Shown here piece by piece: positions 56,055 through 64,000 of a stretch of DNA of 64,000 bases (positions within the stretch are counted from its first letter, which is position 1; the number at the start of each line of letters is the position of its first letter). The notes below the pieces were generated by a model, which was not told where the DNA came from, did no database searches, and saw nothing but the letters and a program-made list of their open reading frames with translations. The position numbers and the translations under genes were made by a program. The stretch covers positions 124,001 to 188,000 of the forward strand of contig CACHOJ010000001.1 of NCBI GenBank assembly GCA_902581405.1. Direction: 5' to 3'. Source of the stretch: an uncultured Pelagibacteraceae bacterium. GTDB lineage: Bacteria; Pseudomonadota; Alphaproteobacteria; Pelagibacterales; Pelagibacteraceae.

Positions 56055-56552
56055 TTATTTAATTGTTATAGGACCGACCATTCCACTTTCGTAGTGACCA
56101 GGAATGTTACATGCCATTTCTAAAGAAATATCTTTTGAAAACTTCCAAATAATTTCTCCTGATTTATTTGGTTCTAACATTACACTATTTGCGTGTTTGT
56201 GGCCCAATGAATGATCTTTTTTAGACATTTCTTTCATCTTTTTATGATCAATTCGGTCGCCTAAAAGAATATCGTGTTCAATTAATCTTGCCATTTCGGG
56301 TTGGTGATCTATATGCATCTTTTTAGTTCCAATATTATATTCATGCACCAGTTCACCTAGATTTTTAACAATTATTTTTACTGTTTCACCTTTTTTAACT
56401 TGAATTGAACTTGGCTCATAATAATTGTCATACATCTTTACTTCTATTACTCTTGTAACATCATTTGGATCACCCTTAGACCCAATCATCTTCATTGAAG
56501 CTGCATTTGAATTAAAGGCGATAAAAATAAATAAAAGTATTAGTTTTTTCAT
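56055..56552 (-). CDS. Secreted cupredoxin-family copper protein with His/Met-rich insert
   Basis: The 165-residue protein has a signal peptide cleaved after the SNA near residue 17. The cupredoxin fold shows type 1 copper ligands His70 (LVHEYNIG), Cys148, His153 and Met158 (ACNIPGHYESGM). Between the two halves (about 76-121) is a stretch with His80, His83, Met87, His93, His103, Met106, Met109, His114, His118 and His120, suited to binding extra copper. Similar loops occur in periplasmic copper-tolerance cupredoxins. It shares one base with the upstream NTF2-like gene, the last member of the small-protein run. Confidence 0.85.
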   Translation of the reverse strand: MKKLILLFIFIAFNSNAASMKMIGSKGDPNDVTRVIEVKMYDNYYEPSSIQVKKGETVKIIVKNLGELVHEYNIGTKKMHIDHQPEMARLIEHDILLGDRIDHKKMKEMSKKDHSLGHKHANSVMLEPNKSGEIIWKFSKDISLEMACNIPGHYESGMVGPITIK

Positions 56553-56872
56553 TATTTAGGCATTGGTGTTGCGCCAGTCTCTAAACTCATGATTTTTCCA
56601 TTATCATATTTATAGACTGCCATTACTGCTTCTGTATTTCCGTCATCAAATGTTACAAATGCGTGGTGTACACCAACTTCATCATTTTCATATACAACTC
56701 GTGTATCTCTTTGATTAATATCACCACTCATCGCCCATTTGATCACTTCAGCTTTACCTAAAGTATTTCCTGATTTATGCATTGTGAATTTAAAGTCATC
56801 ATGCAAAAGCTCATTCATAGCTGCTTCATCTTTATTTTTTAATGCAGCACTGTATTTTTCTAATATTGACAT
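56552..56872 (-). CDS. NTF2-like (SnoaL/DUF4440-type) small protein A
   Basis: The protein starts at the ATG at 56872, because a strong Shine-Dalgarno (AAAGGAGA) lies 6 bp before it; the open frame extends 8 codons further. About 106 residues. It is a clear paralogue of the protein at 58649-58975: both begin MSILEK and share HDD, ENDEVG/ENDEIG, DGNTEA and LETGAT..PK. The fold is the cone-shaped NTF2-like barrel, used by enzymes and ligand-binding proteins. Function unknown. It is followed with a one-base overlap by the cupredoxin gene. Confidence 0.72.
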   Translation of the reverse strand: MSILEKYSAALKNKDEAAMNELLHDDFKFTMHKSGNTLGKAEVIKWAMSGDINQRDTRVVYENDEVGVHHAFVTFDDGNTEAVMAVYKYDNGKIMSLETGATPMPK

Positions 56873-56882
56873 TTTATCTCCT

Positions 56883-57170
56883 TTATACTCCTTCAACTAT
56901 TATTCCATTAGTATCTGCGTTATCTAATCGAATTTGTTTTATTGGTTTATATTCTTCAGAATTATACCATTCTTTCGCTTTCTCGTAACTTGGAAATTTT
57001 ATCACAACTGTCCTTGGATGCTGCCATGACCCTTCAATAGTCTCGCTGCTACCACCTCTTACAAGATACTCCCCACCAAATTTTTCTGCAGTGGGTTTAA
57101 CTTTGTCTATGTATTCCTTATAATTTTCAGGATTGTTAACATTAAGGTTAAAGATCGCATAACCACTCAT
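56883..57170 (-). CDS. DUF1330 family protein
   Basis: The 95-residue dimeric alpha/beta-barrel-type protein has DUF1330 landmarks: NLNVNNPENYKEYIDKVKPT near 7-26, GGEYLVRGGSSETIEGSW near 32-49, VVIKFPSYEKAKEWYNSEEY near 55-74. Good Shine-Dalgarno (AGGAGAA) before the ATG. Function of the family is not established. It lies 2 bp after the GYD-domain gene and 10 bp before NTF2-like protein A, within the small-protein run. Confidence 0.82.
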   Translation of the reverse strand: MSGYAIFNLNVNNPENYKEYIDKVKPTAEKFGGEYLVRGGSSETIEGSWQHPRTVVIKFPSYEKAKEWYNSEEYKPIKQIRLDNADTNGIIVEGV

Positions 57171-57172
57171 AA

Positions 57173-57496
57173 TTATTCTCCTGGTTTAATAACAGACTTT
57201 GTGGCATCTGCAGCATTTTGAAAAGCTTTATTGTAGTCAATAACTTCATGTACCATCAAATCATCCATTAGTCCTGAATTTTTAAAAGCAATCTTCAAGG
57301 CTAGTGCTTGTTCATAATCTCCTTCTACACATGAGATAACATCAAATCTACCTCTTACCCATTCATAGCTGATCAATTTTAAACCAGCAGCCTCGGTAAC
57401 TTTCTTAGTCGATGCATATCTATCCGCAGAAGGATCATTTTGCATTCTTTTCATTAATTCTGCACTTATTTTGCCAATCAAATAAAATCTTGCCAT
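57173..57496 (-). CDS. GYD-domain family protein
   Basis: The 107-residue protein starts at the ATG at 57496 (the frame is open 4 codons further, but this start gives the family N-terminus ARFYLIGKISAELMKRM and abuts the previous stop). The alternating strand-helix pattern with VTEAAGLKLISYEWVRGRFDVISCVEG resembles GYD-domain proteins, a ferredoxin-like fold of unknown function that may be regulatory or bind ligand. One base separates it from the upstream gene's stop. No catalytic residues can be named. Confidence 0.7.
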   Translation of the reverse strand: MARFYLIGKISAELMKRMQNDPSADRYASTKKVTEAAGLKLISYEWVRGRFDVISCVEGDYEQALALKIAFKNSGLMDDLMVHEVIDYNKAFQNAADATKSVIKPGE

Positions 57497-57497
57497 A

Positions 57498-57788
57498 TTA
57501 CATTTCAACTTTCGTTAAATCCCAAGCAGTCATTTTGATAACACATTCATCGTAAATTTCTTTTCCAACTGGATGTGTACCAGATATTAGTTCTTTCATT
57601 TTTTCCATATTATGAACAAATACCTTAAACATTACGCCACTTTTATCTGGCTTTACTGCTCCTATAGTTTTTTCTGGATGAGCTGCAGATTTTCTCACAC
57701 TCATACCTTCATCTGATTGCATCCATCCCATAAATTTTTCAAGCTTTCCTTCTTTCAAATCTACGATTACTAACACTTCTTTTTCCAT
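57498..57788 (-). CDS. Small alpha/beta protein of unknown function
   Basis: I do not recognise this 96-residue protein with certainty. It reads as beta-alpha-beta-beta-alpha-beta (EVLVIVDLKEG ... GVMFKVFVHNMEKMKELISGTHPVG ... CVIKMTAWDL), compatible with the dimeric alpha/beta-barrel fold of its neighbours. It has a strong Shine-Dalgarno (AAAGGAGA). It contains one cysteine and a conserved-looking HPVGKEIYDE stretch. It lies between the secreted barrel-like protein and the GYD protein, clearly part of the same transcription unit. Confidence 0.68.
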   Translation of the reverse strand: MEKEVLVIVDLKEGKLEKFMGWMQSDEGMSVRKSAAHPEKTIGAVKPDKSGVMFKVFVHNMEKMKELISGTHPVGKEIYDECVIKMTAWDLTKVEM

Positions 57789-57832
57789 ATTTTTCTCCTT
57801 TTTTTGTATGATATTTTAATTCAATTAAATGA

Positions 57833-58261
57833 TTATTCAATTGTTTCAATGGTTGTTCCAGGAAAAGCATATCCAACTTGATATGTGAATAACATCGTCT
57901 GAAATTCTTGTATTTCAGACCATTGTGAACCAAGTTGTTGATGATTTGCAAATCCAGCAGGATTTTCATAAAATTCATTTAATACATAGAAAATATTACC
58001 AGTTGTCCCTTGTGATGGGTCACCAGCATTTTTCCACTCAGGACCTTTCATGATTGAATATGAGTTTAGTTTTTTTTCACCTGTTAATGGATGTGTTTCT
58101 TTCATCCATTTTGCATGTTTCATAAGCATTTCCTCAACTTTTGCTGCATCAGCCATAGGCACTTTAAGAGTTATTGAAAAACCGTTTGCATTTGCATGAC
58201 CATCGGCAAAAGAGTTTGTTGTGAACAGACTTAATATTAAAATTAAAAAAATTTTTTTCAT
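57833..58261 (-). CDS. Secreted dimeric alpha/beta-barrel-like protein
   Basis: The 142-residue protein has a clean Sec signal (MKKIFLILILSLFTTNSFA, cleavage after residue 19). The mature part has a strand (FSITLKVPM), a helix (AKVEEMLMKHAKWMKET), strands and FYENPAGFANHQQL, a pattern resembling antibiotic-biosynthesis-monooxygenase-type domains. The HxxH near NHQQLGSQW is notable, but no active site can be assigned. It is the only exported member of the small-protein run besides the cupredoxin, so periplasmic partners are possible. Confidence 0.7.
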   Translation of the reverse strand: MKKIFLILILSLFTTNSFADGHANANGFSITLKVPMADAAKVEEMLMKHAKWMKETHPLTGEKKLNSYSIMKGPEWKNAGDPSQGTTGNIFYVLNEFYENPAGFANHQQLGSQWSEIQEFQTMLFTYQVGYAFPGTTIETIE

Positions 58262-58287
58262 TTATTTACATCCTTTTTTTTATTTAT

Positions 58288-58557
58288 CTAATCTGAGCAA
58301 ACACTCATTACTGTTGTCTCTTGTTTATGTCCAGATTCCGCAATTACTTTAGCATTCTCTGGGCTCTGCATAAATTTTTGCATAGTGTCTGCTGCTGGTG
58401 TTTCCATAACAATATGTACCTTATTTGGATTTTCTAATTCATTACCAACATAAATCGTTTTGATACCTGCCGCTTCTCTTGGGCCAGAATGTTCATCAAA
58501 CATTTTTTTCCAGTGAGCCCAGTCTTTTACTTCAAAGTTACCAACCATTTTTACCAT
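58288..58557 (-). CDS. Small dimeric alpha/beta-barrel-like protein
   Basis: The 89-residue protein starts at the ATG at 58557, one base after the stop of the micro-ORF; the open frame continues upstream to 58614 but without family-like sequence. The sequence MVGNFEVKDWAHWKKMFDEH then IKTIYVGNELENPNKVHIVM and a C-terminal TTVMSVCSD suggests a ferredoxin-like monomer of the ABM kind. Function unknown. A run of six G just upstream could shift the frame and fuse it to the micro-ORF. Confidence 0.68.
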   Translation of the reverse strand: MVKMVGNFEVKDWAHWKKMFDEHSGPREAAGIKTIYVGNELENPNKVHIVMETPAADTMQKFMQSPENAKVIAESGHKQETTVMSVCSD

Positions 58558-58558
58558 T

Positions 58559-58624
58559 TTATTCCCCCCAAACCCCAGCAAATTCATATACTTTATCAAA
58601 AGCTTTAAACTCAATGCTGGCCAT
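58559..58624 (-). CDS. Micro-ORF of 21 codons with a strong Shine-Dalgarno
   Basis: The ATG at 58624 is preceded by AAAGGAG at ideal distance, as good as any in the run. The peptide starts MASIEFKAFDK and ends at a TAA one base before the next ATG, so it is placed for translational coupling. Near its 3' end is a GGGGGG run. Losing one G would read through into the following gene in frame, adding about 21 residues to it. It may be a real microprotein, a coupling leader, or the N-terminus of a frameshifted gene. Confidence 0.5.
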   Translation of the reverse strand: MASIEFKAFDKVYEFAGVWGE

Positions 58625-58648
58625 ATTAACTCCTTTGTAAGTTTATAG

Positions 58649-58975
58649 TTATTTTGGTATTTTTGTTGCTCCAGTTTCTAATTCAATGATTTTACCGTCT
58701 TTAAACTTCCAACAGCACATCAAAGCTTCTGTATTTCCATCTTGATAAGTAACATATGAATGATCAAAACCAATTTCATCATTTTCAAAAAGGATCCTGT
58801 ATTTTGCAGGACTCATCATACCTTTACTTACGGCTTCAACCATACCTGCCTTACCCATATGCACATATTCTCCTTTAAGATGGGAAAACATTTTGTAGTC
58901 ATCGTGCACCAGCTCACCAGCTGCTGCACCATCTTTTTCCATGATTGCTTTATTAAGTTTTTCTAAAATTGACAT
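58649..58975 (-). CDS. NTF2-like (SnoaL/DUF4440-type) small protein B
   Basis: This 108-residue paralogue of the protein at 56552-56872 shares MSILEK at the start, HDDYK, ENDEIGFDHSYVTYQDGNTEA and LETGATKIPK at the end. The predicted order (helices, then a curved sheet) fits an NTF2-like fold. There is a weak Shine-Dalgarno (AAGGAA). It sits 8 bp after the first gene of the run and 24 bp before the micro-ORF. Two copies in one operon suggest either a heterodimer or sub-functionalised partners. Function unknown. Confidence 0.72.
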   Translation of the reverse strand: MSILEKLNKAIMEKDGAAAGELVHDDYKMFSHLKGEYVHMGKAGMVEAVSKGMMSPAKYRILFENDEIGFDHSYVTYQDGNTEALMCCWKFKDGKIIELETGATKIPK

Positions 58976-58983
58976 ATTGTTCC

Positions 58984-59367
58984 TTACTTCTTCATTGCAT
59001 TGAACATGCTAAGCGTATCATCAAAAGTCATCATAACTTTAGTTTTTCCCTCATCACTTACTTCAAAATAGTGACCAAACATAGTATCCATGTTATCCGC
59101 AGTTGCATGAACTCTTGCAAAAACTTTATTTCCTTCACTTATCATATCTAAAACTTTTAAATGGAAATTTGGCCAAGTAGCTGGGATTTTAGACATTGCA
59201 GCCATCATAGCTTGTTTTCCTTTGTGAACTCCAGAAAGTGGATGTACACCTTCTTTACCTGGAAAAGTCCAAACGATTTCATCATCGATCATATCGTTAA
59301 AAAATGTTTCCATATCTCCAGAACCAAAAAGTTCATATGCTTTTTTAGTTTGTTCTTTTACGTCCAT
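58984..59367 (-). CDS. SnoaL-like/ketosteroid-isomerase-type NTF2-fold protein
   Basis: The 127-residue protein has the pattern AYELFGSGDMETFFNDMIDDEIVWTFPG near 10-37, then GVHKGKQAMMAAMSKIP, matching SnoaL-like proteins. A strong Shine-Dalgarno (AAAGGAGA) precedes its ATG, and a TATAAT plus palindrome lie just upstream, so it is the first gene of the small-protein run. Relatives are isomerases, epoxide hydrolases or ligand-binding proteins. No active-site assignment is possible from the sequence alone. Confidence 0.8.
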   Translation of the reverse strand: MDVKEQTKKAYELFGSGDMETFFNDMIDDEIVWTFPGKEGVHPLSGVHKGKQAMMAAMSKIPATWPNFHLKVLDMISEGNKVFARVHATADNMDTMFGHYFEVSDEGKTKVMMTFDDTLSMFNAMKK

Positions 59368-59403
59368 AGTTTCTCCTTTAAATTAATTGACATATTAGAG
59401 TTT

Positions 59404-59436
59404 ATTATAATATAGAAATGTAATGAATTTATTACA
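59404..59436 (-). promoter_or_regulatory. Promoter -10 and near-perfect palindrome before the small-protein operon
   Basis: On the minus strand a TATAAT (59404-59409) lies 37 bp before the first ATG. Immediately upstream, over the -35 region, is TGTAATGAATTTATTACA (59419-59436), an 18-bp palindrome with one non-complementary base pair of positions (16 of 18 symmetric). Its placement and symmetry look like a transcription-factor site. The factor cannot be named. Confidence 0.55.
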
Positions 59437-59452
59437 GTACTGCTATGCGTGA

Positions 59453-60454
59453 TTATATCCAGTGAGGATAGGGAAGACCTTTTTCTTTTAAAAAAGATTT
59501 ATTAAACATCTTAGAGTTGTATTTATCAGATTTATCACAAAGAATCGTAACAATTGTTTTACCTGGACCTAAAAGTTTACCCAACCTTATTGCTCCAGCA
59601 ATGTTTACTCCACAACTTGTACCTAAACTTAAACCTTCTTTCTCAATTAAATCAAATAAAACAGGCAAAGACTCATGATCACTTATTGAAAATGCTCCAT
59701 CAATTTTTGCTTTTGCAAAATTTGCAGTAACTCTACTAGATCCAATACCTTCAGTTATTGAACCACCTTCACTCTTTAATTCACCATTTTCAATGTAACT
59801 ATAAAGAGAGGAACCTGTTGGATCTGATAAATATATTTTAATATCTTTATTCTTTTCTTTTAAAAAACTACTTACACCTGCAATTGTACCACCAGTGCCA
59901 GATGAACATACAAAACCATCTATTTTGCCATCAGTCTGTTCCCATATTTCTGGTCCAGTTGTTTCATAATGACCTTTAGAATTGGCTGTATTGTCAAATT
60001 GATTAGCCCAAACTACACCGTGATTGTTACTACTTTTCAATTCATCAGCCAATCTTCCTGCATATTTAACAAAGTTATTTTCATCTTTATAAGGTTTTGG
60101 TGGAACCAATCTTAAATCAGCTCCAATATTTCTTAATAAATCTTTTTTTTCTTGTGTTTGATTATCGTTCATCACGATAATAGTTTTATAACCAATAGAA
60201 TTTCCTAATAGACATAATCCAATTCCAGTATTACCAGCTGTTCCTTCAACAATTGTTCCACCTTTTGAAATTAGTTTTTTTTCTTCAGCATCTCTTATCA
60301 AAGCTAAAGCTGCTCTATCTTTTACAGAGCCACCTGGATTAAGGTACTCTGCTTTTCCATAAATATTACAACCAGTAATTTCTGATGCGGCTTTTAATTT
60401 AAATAAAGGAGTATTTCCTATTGCTTGGACAAAATTATTTTGTAAAATTTTCAT
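59453..60454 (-). CDS. cysK: Cysteine synthase A (O-acetylserine sulfhydrylase)
   Basis: This 333-residue PLP enzyme has the PLP lysine Lys45 in [11 protein letters not shown], the phosphate/substrate loop [11 protein letters not shown] near 69-79, [11 protein letters not shown] near 190 and [11 protein letters not shown] near 285. It makes cysteine from O-acetylserine and sulfide. Its start overlaps the end of cysE by 4 bp, so both enzymes of the pathway are coupled and may form the cysteine synthase complex. The slightly long C-terminus (ending [11 protein letters not shown]) is typical of alphaproteobacterial CysK2-type proteins. Confidence 0.9.
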
Positions 60455-61032
60455 ATATCAAGCTTTGTATCACCCCCTGGTGCAACACCATAGGGTTTAA
60501 ATTCTTCAGATGCAGTTCCAACATTTTTTGCAGGAATCCCAACCATTACTGCATTTTCTGGAACATCTTTTGTAACAACAGCGTTAGCTCCAATTTTTGC
60601 ATTTTTTCCAACTACAACTGGTCCAAGTATTTGTGCACCTGATCCTACAACTACATTTTCTTTTAATGTTGGATGTCTCTTAACATTTCTTTGATTGTCT
60701 GAATTTATACTTGGAGCAATTCCGCCTAATGTTGCCATGTGATAAATGGTAACGTTATCTCCAATATCAGATGTTTCTCCAATAACTACTCCCATGCCAT
60801 GATCTATAAAAAGATTTTTTCCAATTTTAGCATTTGGATGGATTTCTATACCTGTTAAAAATCTTGAGAACTGAGAAATTATTCTTGCAACAAGATGAAA
60901 TTTTGCAATTGAAAAAAAATTTGCAATTCTATGAAAAAATACAGCTTTAACACCAGGATAAGTTAGTATTAAACTTAACTTTGATCTTGCAGCAGGATCT
61001 CTTTTAATTATCGACTCTAAAAAATCATTCAT
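60451..61032 (-). CDS. cysE: Serine O-acetyltransferase (CysE/EpsC type)
   Basis: The 193-residue protein is the short form with an N-terminal helical domain and a left-handed beta-helix of hexapeptide repeats ([53 protein letters not shown]). Catalytic residues are in [11 protein letters not shown]. The C-terminus ends KLDI, with Ile last as in CysE tails that insert into CysK. It is coupled to cysK by 4 bp. The metallothionein-like gene ends 30 bp upstream. Confidence 0.91.
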
Positions 61033-61062
61033 GTTTGTTTAAGATTAGTTATTAAAATTTAA

Positions 61063-61173
61063 CTACTTGTTACAACAGCAGTTTTCTGATGATGGTTTGC
61101 AATCACAATTTTTACAAACGCATCTGTCACAAGAACAGTTCTTACATTTACAGTGTGTATTATTGCATACCAT
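61063..61173 (-). CDS. Metallothionein-like 36-residue cysteine-rich protein
   Basis: A minus-strand frame from ATG at 61173 to TAG at 61063 encodes 36 residues with 12 cysteines, at 3, 8, 10, 13, 15, 18, 20, 23, 25, 32, 33 and 34. The centre is a repeated CxCxxCxCxxCxCxxCxC pattern and the end is CCC; there is one histidine (7) and no aromatic residue. That composition is unlike random DNA and is the signature of a metal-thiolate protein. It lies between cysE and the persulfide dioxygenase, on the same strand. Binding of zinc or copper is expected by analogy; family membership needs a database search. No clear Shine-Dalgarno. Confidence 0.75.
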   Translation of the reverse strand: MVCNNTHCKCKNCSCDRCVCKNCDCKPSSENCCCNK

Positions 61174-61177
61174 AAGA

Positions 61178-61207
61178 GTTATATAATTGTATATTTTTTA
61201 AAAACAA
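61178..61207 (-). promoter_or_regulatory. Candidate promoter directly abutting the metallothionein-like gene
   Basis: On the minus strand TTGTTT (61202-61207) and TATAAC (61178-61183) are separated by 18 bp, and the -10 ends 4 bp before the ATG. Transcription would start at or within a few bases of the start codon, giving a leaderless or near-leaderless mRNA, consistent with the missing Shine-Dalgarno. Weak evidence in AT-rich DNA. Confidence 0.3.
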
Positions 61208-61227
61208 TACTAATAATAACCCTGATT

Positions 61228-61920
61228 TTAGAGTTCTTTAAGTGTTAATCCCTTTAGATTTGCAGGGACTGCAATATCCATCATTTTTGGGTTAGCAAGA
61301 TTAAGATTATCCATTATTTCAGCATATTCCTCTTTTGAGCTGACTTGTAATCGAGGGTTATTGTTCTTCTCACTACCAATTGTTGAATTTTTTTTTCCAT
61401 TATAATCATGAGCAGGATAAACAAGTGTTTCTTCTGGCAGTTTTAAAAGTTTACCAAACAATGAATCATAAGCCTGATGAGCACTACCATTTTGAAAATC
61501 TGTTCTACCTGTCCCATTAATTAGAAGTGTATCTCCTGTAAAAACTCTATCATTCATTAAGTAACTATATGAACAATCAGTATGACCTGGAGTATATATA
61601 GCTTTAAGCTCTATACTCTCAATATTTATATTTTCTTCATCTTTTAATTTTATATCAATTACCTCAGATTTAGAGTTTTCACCCATTATGCGAATACAAT
61701 TTGTTCGTTGATTAAGTTCATTTAAGCCAGTTACATGATCTGCGTGAATATGAGTATCAATTACTTTAACAAGTTTTAATTCTAAATTTTCTAAAATTTT
61801 TATGTATTCATCAGTATGTTCAATTACAGGATCTATTATTAATGCTTCACGTCCTTTTCCACTAGAAATTATATAGGTGTAAGTTGAGGATTTAGTATCA
61901 AATAGTTGTTCGAAAATCAT
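61228..61920 (-). CDS. Persulfide dioxygenase (ETHE1-like MBL-fold protein)
   Basis: The 230-residue protein has the metallo-beta-lactamase motif THIHADH (56-62), His113 in TPGHTDCSYSY, Asp130 in FTGDTLLINGTGRTDFQ and His171 in PAHDYNG, the mononuclear iron site plus the ETHE1-type RTDFQ motif. ETHE1 oxidises glutathione persulfide to sulfite and glutathione. It lies 35 bp after the sulfide:quinone oxidoreductase gene, the classical pairing for sulfide detoxification. No rhodanese domain is attached. Confidence 0.89.
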   Translation of the reverse strand: MIFEQLFDTKSSTYTYIISSGKGREALIIDPVIEHTDEYIKILENLELKLVKVIDTHIHADHVTGLNELNQRTNCIRIMGENSKSEVIDIKLKDEENINIESIELKAIYTPGHTDCSYSYLMNDRVFTGDTLLINGTGRTDFQNGSAHQAYDSLFGKLLKLPEETLVYPAHDYNGKKNSTIGSEKNNNPRLQVSSKEEYAEIMDNLNLANPKMMDIAVPANLKGLTLKEL

Positions 61921-61955
61921 AATTACAAAATAATTAAAATTTTATAAAATTGATA

Positions 61956-63197
61956 CTAATTTTCAATAGCTTTATGATTAGGCTTACTCCATTCTTTTCC
62001 TTTAAACATTACATTCCATTGCAACCAAGGAAAAAGCTTTGATTTCATTTGCCAATATAGAGAACTAGGTTTTGTTGGATCAAAGGGTAAACTTGGAGTC
62101 ACTTTTCCACCATAACAAAATTCTGCTAACATAACTTTACCGTATGCAACTGTAAGAGGGCAGGCTCCATATCCATCATAAAGTCTATATGCTTCAGATG
62201 ACTTATTGATATCTTTAATAATATTGTGAGCCACTATTGGAGTTTGTTTTCTAACTGCTGCACCTGTTTTTGCATTAGGTGCATTCATTACATCACCTAA
62301 ACTGTAAATATTTTCATATTTAGTATGTCTTAATGTTCCTTCTTTATGATCTACATCGACCCATCCACCAGCATCAGCTAATGGACTATTCTTAATAAAG
62401 TCTGGAGAAGTTTGAGGAGGCGTTACATGAATAAAATCAAATTTCTTTGTAACTTCTTTAGAATTTCCGTCTTTATCTGATTGTTTGAATACAGCCTCTT
62501 TGGCATCGCCATTTACTGAAATTAAATTATGTTGGAAGCTTCTTTTAATACCATATGAGTCGCATATTTCATTTAGTGGACCTTGAAAATGAGGTACACC
62601 AAAAATAACTGGCTTTGCACATAAAAATTCTAAATTACTATCTTTAAGAGCTCCTTTTTTCTTTAAGTGATCAGCAGCTAAGTAAGCAATTTTTTGAGGT
62701 GCTCCTGCACACTTAATTGGCATTGGAGGTTCAGTAAATAATAAATTTCCTCCCTGTAAATTCTTTAAACATTCCCAAGTATAAACAGCCATATCTGAAC
62801 TATAGTTTGTACAAACATTATTTTTTCCTAAAGTTTCTTTTAAACCAGCCACTCCATCAAAGTTAATTTTTAAACCAGGACAAACTACTAAGTAGTCATA
62901 TGAATATTCACCACCTGAAGTTTTGACTGAATTAGATTCAGGAGAAAAGCTTTCTGCATATTCTTTTATCCAATTAACATAATTAGGCATTACAGATGAC
63001 ATTGGTTTTATGGTGCTATTTACATCATAAGCACCTGCACCAACTAACGTCCATGCTGCTTGATATAAAGATTTTTCTGAAGGTTCTATAATTGATATTG
63101 ATAAGTCAGACTTTAAACTTTTAAGTCTTGTAGCAACTGATATACCAGCGCATCCGCCACCGATAATCAAAATATTTGAGTGATTAGAGTTGTTCAT
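61956..63197 (-). CDS. sqr: Sulfide:quinone oxidoreductase, type II (SQOR-like)
   Basis: The 413-residue flavoprotein starts at the ATG at 63197, because the family N-terminus with FAD motif ILIIGGGCAG follows within 18 residues; the frame is open 13 codons further. Close resemblance to mitochondrial SQOR: EPPMPIKCAGAPQK with the first redox cysteine, HVTPPQTSPD, DAGGWVDVD and YDGYGACPLTVAYGKVMLAEF with the second. It oxidises sulfide at the membrane, passes electrons to quinone and gives a persulfide for the ETHE1-type enzyme. It is divergent from the peroxiredoxin gene across 130 bp. Confidence 0.88.
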   Translation of the reverse strand: MNNSNHSNILIIGGGCAGISVATRLKSLKSDLSISIIEPSEKSLYQAAWTLVGAGAYDVNSTIKPMSSVMPNYVNWIKEYAESFSPESNSVKTSGGEYSYDYLVVCPGLKINFDGVAGLKETLGKNNVCTNYSSDMAVYTWECLKNLQGGNLLFTEPPMPIKCAGAPQKIAYLAADHLKKKGALKDSNLEFLCAKPVIFGVPHFQGPLNEICDSYGIKRSFQHNLISVNGDAKEAVFKQSDKDGNSKEVTKKFDFIHVTPPQTSPDFIKNSPLADAGGWVDVDHKEGTLRHTKYENIYSLGDVMNAPNAKTGAAVRKQTPIVAHNIIKDINKSSEAYRLYDGYGACPLTVAYGKVMLAEFCYGGKVTPSLPFDPTKPSSLYWQMKSKLFPWLQWNVMFKGKEWSKPNHKAIEN

Positions 63198-63270
63198 ATT
63201 AAAAAATCTAACACTTATAATTTGCTTAAGATACACGTCTTATAAGTTGTTTTTTCAAAGTTAAATATCG

Positions 63271-63298
63271 TTGATAAACCTCATCAATAATTTATAAT
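63271..63298 (+). promoter_or_regulatory. Sigma-70-type promoter for the peroxiredoxin gene
   Basis: TTGATA (63271-63276) and TATAAT (63293-63298) are separated by 16 bp, nearly consensus. An AAAGGAG Shine-Dalgarno at 63313-63319 and ATG at 63328 follow at normal distances. It is the clearest promoter in the window. The remainder of the 130-bp divergent region holds no other obvious element; a -10-like TATAAG on the opposite strand could serve sqr. Confidence 0.6.
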
Positions 63299-63327
63299 AG
63301 TTCTAATTAATTAAAGGAGAGTAAAGA

Positions 63328-63987
63328 ATGTTAAAAATAAACAGTATGTGTCCTGACTTTCAATGCAAAACTACTGAAGGAGATATCTCTTTTCATGAGT
63401 GGCTTGGAGATAGTTGGGGTGTTTTATTTTCTCACCCAAAAGATTTTACACCAGTTTGTACAACAGAATTAGGTTCATTAGGACAAATGAAAGCTGAGTT
63501 TGATGCAAGAAATGTAAAAGTTATTGGACTAAGTGTTGATGGGGTAGAGGATCATAAAAAATGGTTAAATGATATTAAAGATGTATCTGGAACAATGCCT
63601 GATTATCCTATAATCGCTGACGAAGATTTAAAAGTTGCAAAACTTTTTAATATGTTAGAAGCTGATGCAGGAACAACATCAATGGGTCGTACTGCAGTTG
63701 ATAATGAGACGGTAAGAACTATTTTTGTTGTAAGACCAGATAAAAGAATTGGTCTATATTTAACTTATCCTATGGCAACAGGAAGAAATTTCCATGAAAT
63801 TTTAAGAGCCATAGACTCTATGCAGCTGACTGCAAAACATAAAGTTGCAACACCAGCTAATTGGAAAAAAGGTGAAGATGTAGTTATTCTTCCAGCAGTT
63901 AAAGATGAAGAGGCTAAGAAAATTTATCCAGATGGTTGGGAAACTGTTAAACCATATTTAAGAAAAGTACCTGACCCTTCAAAATAA
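63328..63987 (+). CDS. 1-Cys peroxiredoxin (Prx6 family)
   Basis: This 219-residue peroxiredoxin has peroxidatic Cys44 in HPKDFTPVCTTELG, followed by GLSVDGVEDHKKW and the C-terminal extension typical of Prx6 (YPMATGRNFHEILRAID and WKKGEDVVILPAVKDEEAKKIYPDGW). No resolving cysteine is seen beyond Cys8 and Cys13, so it probably relies on an external thiol. It reduces hydroperoxides in the cytosol. Strong promoter and Shine-Dalgarno. Divergent from sqr, so a shared redox or sulfide signal may control both. Only 13 bp follow to the window edge. Confidence 0.93.
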   Translation: MLKINSMCPDFQCKTTEGDISFHEWLGDSWGVLFSHPKDFTPVCTTELGSLGQMKAEFDARNVKVIGLSVDGVEDHKKWLNDIKDVSGTMPDYPIIADEDLKVAKLFNMLEADAGTTSMGRTAVDNETVRTIFVVRPDKRIGLYLTYPMATGRNFHEILRAIDSMQLTAKHKVATPANWKKGEDVVILPAVKDEEAKKIYPDGWETVKPYLRKVPDPSK

Positions 63988-64000
63988 AGGGTTAAAAAAG

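Follow-up and report, generated by a model that had tools for sequence, protein, structure and literature searches.

On the minus strand of the window, by which we mean the whole 64,000-nucleotide stretch of Pelagibacteraceae DNA that was analyzed, genes coding for a sulfide:quinone reductase (SQR)-like protein, a persulfide dioxygenase (PDO)-like hydrolase, a short cysteine-rich protein, CysE, and CysK follow one another in that order, and a peroxiredoxin gene at 63328 is divergent (table 1). The short ORF translates to MVCNNTHCKCKNCSCDRCVCKNCDCKPSSENCCCNK followed by a stop codon; 12 of its 36 residues are Cys and none is Phe, Trp, or Tyr. This is the composition claimed in an earlier reading of the window (hereafter, the sequence-only reading), and the PDO-like gene and cysE are indeed the neighbors that it had named. 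We infer the name PDO for the product of the upstream neighbor. Behind cysK, the minus strand encodes approximately eight small proteins of 95–142 amino acids (56552–59367), several of which are similar to each other in length and motifs.

Table 1. Features at the locus of the cysteine-rich ORF, ordered by position in the window.
Feature	Position	Strand	Basis
cysK, cysteine synthase; 4-nt overlap with cysE	59453..60454	minus	NF007989 above cut-off
cysE, serine O-acetyltransferase	60451..61032	minus	TIGR01172 and NF041874 above cut-off
Hairpin over Cys codons and stop, arms 61077-61083 and 61061-61067	61061..61083	minus	-6.4 kcal/mol, z -2.2
Metallothionein-like ORF, 36 residues, 12 Cys	61063..61173	minus	Sequence; conservation in 101 distinct loci
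Run of three Cys codons (C32-C34), two codons ahead of the stop	61072..61080	minus	Sequence
N-terminal module C3-C20, CxNxxCxCxxCxCxxCxC	61114..61167	minus	Pattern common to viral-contig peptides and CopZ tails
Predicted -10 element TATATA, 6 nt before the ATG	61180..61185	minus	TATA-like element near -12 in relatives
Predicted -35 element TTGTTT	61202..61207	minus	TTG at -37 to -29 in 72/72 unique upstream sequences
PDO-like metallo-beta-lactamase	61228..61920	minus	PF00753; NF040641, TIGR03413 below cut-off
SQR-like protein, optional in relatives	61956..63236	minus	NF049943, E 5.3e-61, below cut-off

The ORF is very short and matches no annotated family, as a functionless chance reading frame might, but other evidence argues strongly against chance. 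When the entire 64-kb window was shuffled 60 times with its dinucleotide content preserved, the maximum number of Cys per 36 open residues was 9, versus 12 in the window. Across relatives, dN/dS calculated by length class is 0.14–0.21, and 101 distinct copies are intact. We reject a chance frame on these grounds, as the sequence-only reading had done on composition, and consider its probability negligible.

The 101 distinct loci constitute the family set, from which duplicates identical in the ORF and in 60 bases on each side were excluded. The set was pooled from single-sequence, profile, and pattern searches, hence the family has at least 101 loci; all loci that carry a taxon label belong to Pelagibacteraceae. 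Members have 11–13 Cys in 36–44 amino acids and, summed over the 101 members, only 12 Tyr and 3 Phe with no Trp. Nearly all have a run of three or more consecutive Cys. Members with an extra module also occur (L076 and P0028). In the class of 39 residues, every one of 11 core Cys is present in 41 of 41 distinct coding sequences while their codons alternate between TGT and TGC, and four other residues are also kept in most (N5 in 39, K7 in 38, N12 in 40, and P30 in 35). Across the non-Cys residues of the body of the protein, dN/dS is 0.24–0.42, indicative of purifying selection. The sequence-only reading had named conservation of the ORF in related genomes as a check on itself, and the result is favorable: the frame is intact in all 101 loci and Cys are kept while codons drift, with the exception of four members, all of the 36-residue class, that have each lost one Cys. 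The metallothionein-like ORF is thus confirmed as a conserved protein-coding gene of Pelagibacteraceae.

The gene is patchily distributed. A single-sequence search of 201 genomes of the genus yielded matches in 39 at E ≤ 10 and in 24 at E < 1e-3. One of the weak matches (genome G112) is probably false because the cysE junction of this genome holds no such ORF. A profile search of 297 genomes of the family identified 22 strong matches, which span four genera, and one weak match. In the genus, clear profile matches were found in 23 of 144 genomes, all of which are at least 88% complete except for the window's own genome (78%); nine weak matches (E of 0.1–0.5, partial, eight with a stop) were left uncounted. 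Since 121 of the 144 genomes have no clear match, the gene is dispensable, and it is absent from a complete (100%) genome consisting of a single contig (G012). A pattern scan of named genomes found at least 119 stretches, of which at least 71 are labeled Pelagibacteraceae among the matches listed. When 5.8 billion predicted proteins were searched using an alignment headed by a member of 44 residues, 60 relatives were recovered, all of them unnamed and without a Pfam domain. On a tree of cysE thinned to 57 rows, two changes in presence are needed to explain the distribution (two to three in bootstraps), and the gene occurs in deep branches. This pattern fits a gene that is old and has been lost at least twice, provided that the midpoint root of the tree is correct.

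The gene product has the composition by which metallothioneins are broadly recognized: small size, a very high content of Cys arranged in CxC and CxxC motifs, and few or no aromatic residues. It could not be assigned to a named family. The window peptide matched zero Pfam families at E ≤ 1, including PF02069, which we take to be the family of the bacterial metallothioneins SmtA, BmtA, and PmtA. NCBIfam and PHROG profiles, with which peptides from relatives and viral contigs were also scanned, likewise had no match to the window peptide, and a profile search of the PDB returned no metallothionein chain at E ≤ 10. The PDB matches that did appear are LDL-receptor repeats at E of 1.1 and worse, and we took them as chance. 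Family profiles, proposed in the sequence-only reading as a check, therefore assigned the window peptide to no family of Pfam, NCBIfam, PHROG, or the PDB, and the gene appears to represent a metallothionein-like family that is unnamed in all libraries searched. The earlier assignment as metallothionein-like is supported by the conserved spacing of Cys, purifying selection on the body residues, a module pattern shared with viral contigs and CopZ-like tails, and persistence in loci lacking cysE; no known metallothionein family matches. We consider the gene product likely to be a metallothionein-like metal-thiolate protein.

SmtA, BmtA, and PmtA resemble the gene product in being small and cysteine-rich, and SmtA and PmtA have CxCxxCxC motifs, but SmtA-type bacterial metallothioneins have roughly 50–56 residues, compared to 36–39 in peptides of this gene family. 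Bacterial metallothioneins are described as having a GATA-type zinc-finger fold in the available text of one source (PMC10612145). Such a fold is not expected in the product of this gene because a 36-mer is short and this one is without aromatic residues. In the parts of the literature on metallothioneins in SAR11 or Pelagibacter that were available to us, we found no description of such a gene.

The genomic context for metal handling is sparse. No E1-E2 P-type ATPase was detected in the window's genome or in 24 chosen relatives of the genus, 13 with the gene and 11 without, in a search in which 14 of 14 controls were positive; nor was there a match to the HMA domain in the window's genome, which is 78% complete. 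With or without the gene, the cells appear to have none of the usual P-type exporters of soft metals, and P-type ATPases therefore do not explain the distribution of the gene. In Ca. P. ubique, most detoxification systems are described as low or absent (PMC4161860, in the text available).

The N-terminal module of the gene occurs in other contexts. In a sample of viral contigs (IMG/VR), the pattern is present in 86 of 120 fetched contigs, and thus in at least 86, where it is in 68 distinct short peptides. The viral-contig ORFs have 20–50 residues, such as one beginning MCNNEECKCENCTCDPCEC, and the median G+C of the contigs is 0.35 (loci between L171 and L290; for example, L196 at 6131 and L229 at 5278). 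A fifth Cys (Cys13) is present in 68 of 68 viral peptides although the search pattern did not require it, and is followed by Asp or Glu in 58. A profile comparison between the family and one viral-contig peptide gave a probability of 95%, a score of a kind that Cys-rich sequences inflate. The module is also the C-terminal tail of a CopZ-like metallochaperone domain in two loci (L075, 4622–4918; L106, 2193–2543) and seemingly in a third (L110, around 3357). Viral-contig peptides and CopZ tails share with the gene the pattern CxNxxCxCxxCxCxxCxC, its conserved Asn, and mostly an Asp or Glu after the fifth Cys, but differ from it in that the second half of the gene, CxCKP...CCC, is absent. None of the fetched viral loci has a match to cysE, cysK, PDO, or SQR, and neither PHROGs nor NCBIfam has a name for the few viral-contig peptides that were scanned. 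A protein search of named phage records with two of the peptides yielded no match, in a search where the low-complexity filter of BLAST may remove such queries. Within the accessible portions of the literature on metallothioneins in phages or viral contigs (e.g., PMC7558416) and on CopZ fusions, nothing was recognized as this module. We suggest that the viral-contig peptides may represent a phage-borne metallothionein-like module.

Directly behind the gene is cysE in 97 of 101 loci. The other four consist of two with msrB instead, one at the end of its stretch, and one whose match to cysE starts late. PDO is in front in 95 of 101 loci. Among 90 loci that could be classified, PDO is preceded by SQR in 31 and by a divergent peroxiredoxin gene in 59. 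Viewed from the side of cysE, 47 of 128 genomes with cysE have a PDO (≥76% identity) directly in front of it. In 23 of the 47 PDO-cysE junctions, the metallothionein-like gene is in between, with a gap of 193–215 nt, and in 24, it is absent, with a gap of 26–49 nt; this count used 50 PDO matches with ≥76% identity and left out 77 divergent ones (60–69%). In a sister genus (g4), three loci have the order gene-cysE-msrB (L031, L033, and L036) and two have gene-msrB with no cysE (L043 and L046). No PDO adjoins the gene in any of the five, and all 11 core Cys are present in the two without cysE. We presume, from motifs, that the msrB of these two loci codes for methionine sulfoxide reductase B. 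As an alternative partner, msrB is of interest because thionein reportedly serves as a reductant for methionine sulfoxide reductases. In a group of other loci (L303, L305–L320, and L329), cysE-cysK has neither PDO nor a metallothionein-like ORF in front, and many genomes with this alternative arrangement hold a PDO of 60–69% identity elsewhere.

These counts bear on ties that the sequence-only reading had drawn between the gene and its surroundings. The tie to cysteine synthesis is supported by the position of cysE. The tie to sulfide oxidation is not constant, and we reject the idea that the gene belongs to a fixed sulfide-oxidation unit given the 24 junctions without it, the optional SQR, and a sister genus where no PDO adjoins. 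The related suggestion, that the protein stores reduced sulfur or persulfide for the SQR-PDO pathway, has in its favor that PDO is so commonly upstream. But the same junctions, the presence of SQR in just 31 of the 90 classifiable loci, the five sister-genus loci, and a promoter-like element of the gene's own make it very improbable. A tie to a nearby cupredoxin, also suggested, found no support: its gene is 4.5 kb away and turned up in 11 of the 101 loci, in a set where many loci end short of that distance. Neighborhood counts together with the sister genus therefore indicate that the gene is bound more closely to cysE than to sulfide oxidation, and that the protein outlives both.

The promoter-like element, overlooked by the sequence-only reading, lies immediately upstream of the gene. 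Across the 72 unique upstream sequences of relatives, the TTG is mostly at -34. With a promoter matrix evaluated by leave-one-out, 89% of 28 representatives score above 99% of shuffles, whereas a strict consensus scan called neither a promoter nor a terminator for the gene. Because the -10-like element is so near to the ATG, the transcript is predicted to start at or beside the ATG, yielding a leaderless mRNA. Before cysE, the matrix found a site in 1 of 78 cases where cysE is behind the gene, in 5 of 8 where it is directly behind PDO (the 8 of 24 gene-less junctions that were fetched for this comparison), and in 2 of 18 with the type-B arrangement. We infer from this pattern that cysE-cysK may be read from the promoter-like element before the gene. 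The lack of a site between the gene and cysE is only limited evidence of cotranscription because cysE in the type-B arrangement mostly fails the matrix too.

The sequence-only reading also overlooked a hairpin at the 3' end of the gene, as well as the leader role that it might have. In relatives, the predicted hairpin spans the Cys-Cys-Cys codons and the two after them, and it continues through the stop to end a few bases past it. Its strength was expressed as a z-score of the fold relative to the same residues recoded at random with synonymous codons. For 48 unique 3' ends of the class ending in three Cys (CCC), the mean z is -3.0, and 44 are below -1.5. As a class, CCC-ended relatives have a hairpin whose strength exceeds what encoding the protein would by itself require. 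The hairpin is lacking from 16 unique 3' ends of the class with four Cys (CCCC), nearly all of which are before cysE (mean z of -0.38; 1 of 16 below -1.5), and it is absent from the two loci without cysE (z of +0.23). In the 36-residue class of the window, it is weak and in a register that differs from that of the 39-residue class, with z from -0.4 to -2.5 and only -0.4 to -0.8 in several members; the two representatives of this class are too few for an analysis of covariation.

The 39/44-residue class, represented by 26 sequences that include the two cysE-less loci, was used to measure covariation in a 14-pair stem, in comparison to 500 shuffles. Three measures exceed all shuffles: cells with a double-sided change (36 vs. 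19.7, SD 2.9), paired cells (80.5% vs. 71.3), and the covariation score (0.317 vs. 0.207), each reached by 0 of 500. Two others, which the tool rates as least fooled by relatedness, are at the level of shuffles: there are 7 pairs with a double-sided change (vs. 6.1; reached by 152 of 500 shuffles) and 19 further pair types (vs. 18.6; reached by 266 of 500). The odds of a leader role are slightly lower because these two of five measures do not exceed shuffles. When the stem was slid, 3 to 17 cells had a double-sided change. One inner pair of the stem is C-G in 11 representatives and G-C in 10, and RNAalifold predicted the inner seven pairs for the class. For the last non-Cys residues, dN/dS is 1.06 in the 39-residue class and 1.78 in the 38-residue class, which has no hairpin, and 0.07 and 0.15 in the 36- and 37-residue classes, respectively. 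These values do not support RNA constraint because the pattern does not track the hairpin. At the loci of relatives, neither a regular U-tract nor an antiterminator was found; in some clades, short T-runs follow or join the hairpin (e.g., L025, L029, and L037). Larger RNA folds that include the whole ORF, calculated for 24 chosen loci, are mostly near those of dinucleotide shuffles, with a few at z of -2 to -3. An Rfam scan of positions 58000–64000 of the window identified no family at E ≤ 1.

The organization of the gene is reminiscent of leader peptides: it is a short ORF in which consecutive Cys codons lie close to the stop, and the next gene is one for cysteine synthesis. In Actinobacteria, leader peptides with runs of Cys near the stop precede cys operons, and those of Mycobacterium are described as having no conserved terminator hairpin (available text of PMC1262725). 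Mycobacterial polycysteine ORFs, described as short and leaderless (Canestrari et al. 2020, as presented in parts of PMC9031893 and PMC9094748), are, as far as those parts describe them, similar to the gene in size, in leaderlessness (predicted here), and in having a Cys run near the stop before cysteine-metabolism genes. The gene is unlike them in that its peptide is metallothionein-like throughout, conservation is not confined to the run, and a hairpin covers the run. Closer in phylogeny is uORFC-8-2, located before cysS in Rhodobacterales, in which tandem Cys codons are in a stem and ribosome-mediated attenuation has been proposed (accessible text of PMC8632094). It shares with the gene an alphaproteobacterial host and tandem Cys codons inside an RNA stem, but differs in preceding cysS, in having two Cys codons, and in its U-run terminator. 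The Rfam scan had no match to uORFC-8-2 in positions 58000–64000 of the window, with presence of this motif in the library unconfirmed. Structured RNAs have been studied in Ca. P. ubique (PMC2704228), and the main text of that work does not mention cysE, cysK, or cysteine.

The likeness to leaders raises the possibility that the ORF serves cysteine sensing alone and that the peptide itself has no function. A predicted leaderless ORF, a Cys run near the stop under a hairpin, and cysteine genes behind it would all suit this explanation, as would the plan that it shares with the mycobacterial polycysteine ORFs, judged from the available text of PMC9031893. But a leader needs neither another eight or nine Cys whose spacing is fixed nor the conserved Asn, Lys, and Pro residues. 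All 11 core Cys survive before msrB in loci with neither cysE nor a hairpin, and the module pattern is shared by stand-alone viral-contig peptides and CopZ tails. We regard an exclusive role as a leader peptide as unlikely.

At the other extreme, the gene may encode a metallothionein-like protein and nothing else, with the hairpin being a plain intercistronic or terminator-like element that leads to more metallothionein than cysE mRNA and involves no sensing. The Cys spacing, the conservation of residues, and the spread of the module require no regulation, and the CCCC class lacking a hairpin, the two covariation measures at shuffle level, and the short T-runs in some clades are all compatible with this explanation. 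It does not account for the resemblance to Cys leaders (PMC1262725 and PMC8632094, in the parts available) of a Cys run in a hairpin, by the stop, and before a cysteine-synthesis gene, nor for the hairpin missing in both loci without cysE; there, the start of msrB is so close that a terminator would be excluded anyway. We consider this explanation plausible though on balance improbable.

The explanation that we favor combines the two roles: the gene would encode a metallothionein-like protein, and its 3' end would serve in addition as a leader that senses cysteine for cysE-cysK. We assign it a probability of roughly 0.47, slightly short of even odds. Transcription would start at or beside the ATG and run on into cysE-cysK, and cysteine thiolates of the peptide would form clusters around soft metals (Zn(II), Cu(I), or Cd(II)), in cells where the search for P-type ATPases detected no such exporter. 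With less certainty, when charged tRNA-Cys is low, ribosomes might pause at the Cys-Cys-Cys codons such that the hairpin stays open, and an open hairpin might allow more RNA polymerase or more translation to pass to cysE-cysK. With plentiful cysteine, the hairpin might form and restrain the operon. The outcome could be that a cysteine-hungry protein and the synthesis of cysteine are balanced on one mRNA. The leader half of the proposal is in doubt because the CCCC class keeps cysE without the hairpin, covariation is mixed, and a regular U-tract and an antiterminator are lacking. In addition, Cys codons located upstream would also slow a starved ribosome, which could reverse the logic of attenuation.

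Taken more broadly, this approximately 110-base gene may have two jobs: it would represent a new family of metallothioneins in ocean bacteria, its hairpin-folded Cys codons would gauge the cysteine operon, and its module would seemingly be widespread in marine viruses. We offer this wider picture tentatively, as possible rather than probable. In cultured Ca. P. ubique, cysK and cysE are not raised under sulfur stress, according to the accessible text of PMC5069961, and strains with the gene are predicted to differ from it in the response of cysK and cysE to sulfur stress. A dedicated metal-thiolate protein in about one sixth of the genomes of the genus (23 of 144) would extend what is understood of how metals are handled in the surface ocean. 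If the combined role is true, the metal-thiolate sink of the cell regulates the supply of the material from which it is made, and a metallothionein that is the cysteine sensor of its own operon joins metal homeostasis and ribosome-mediated regulation.
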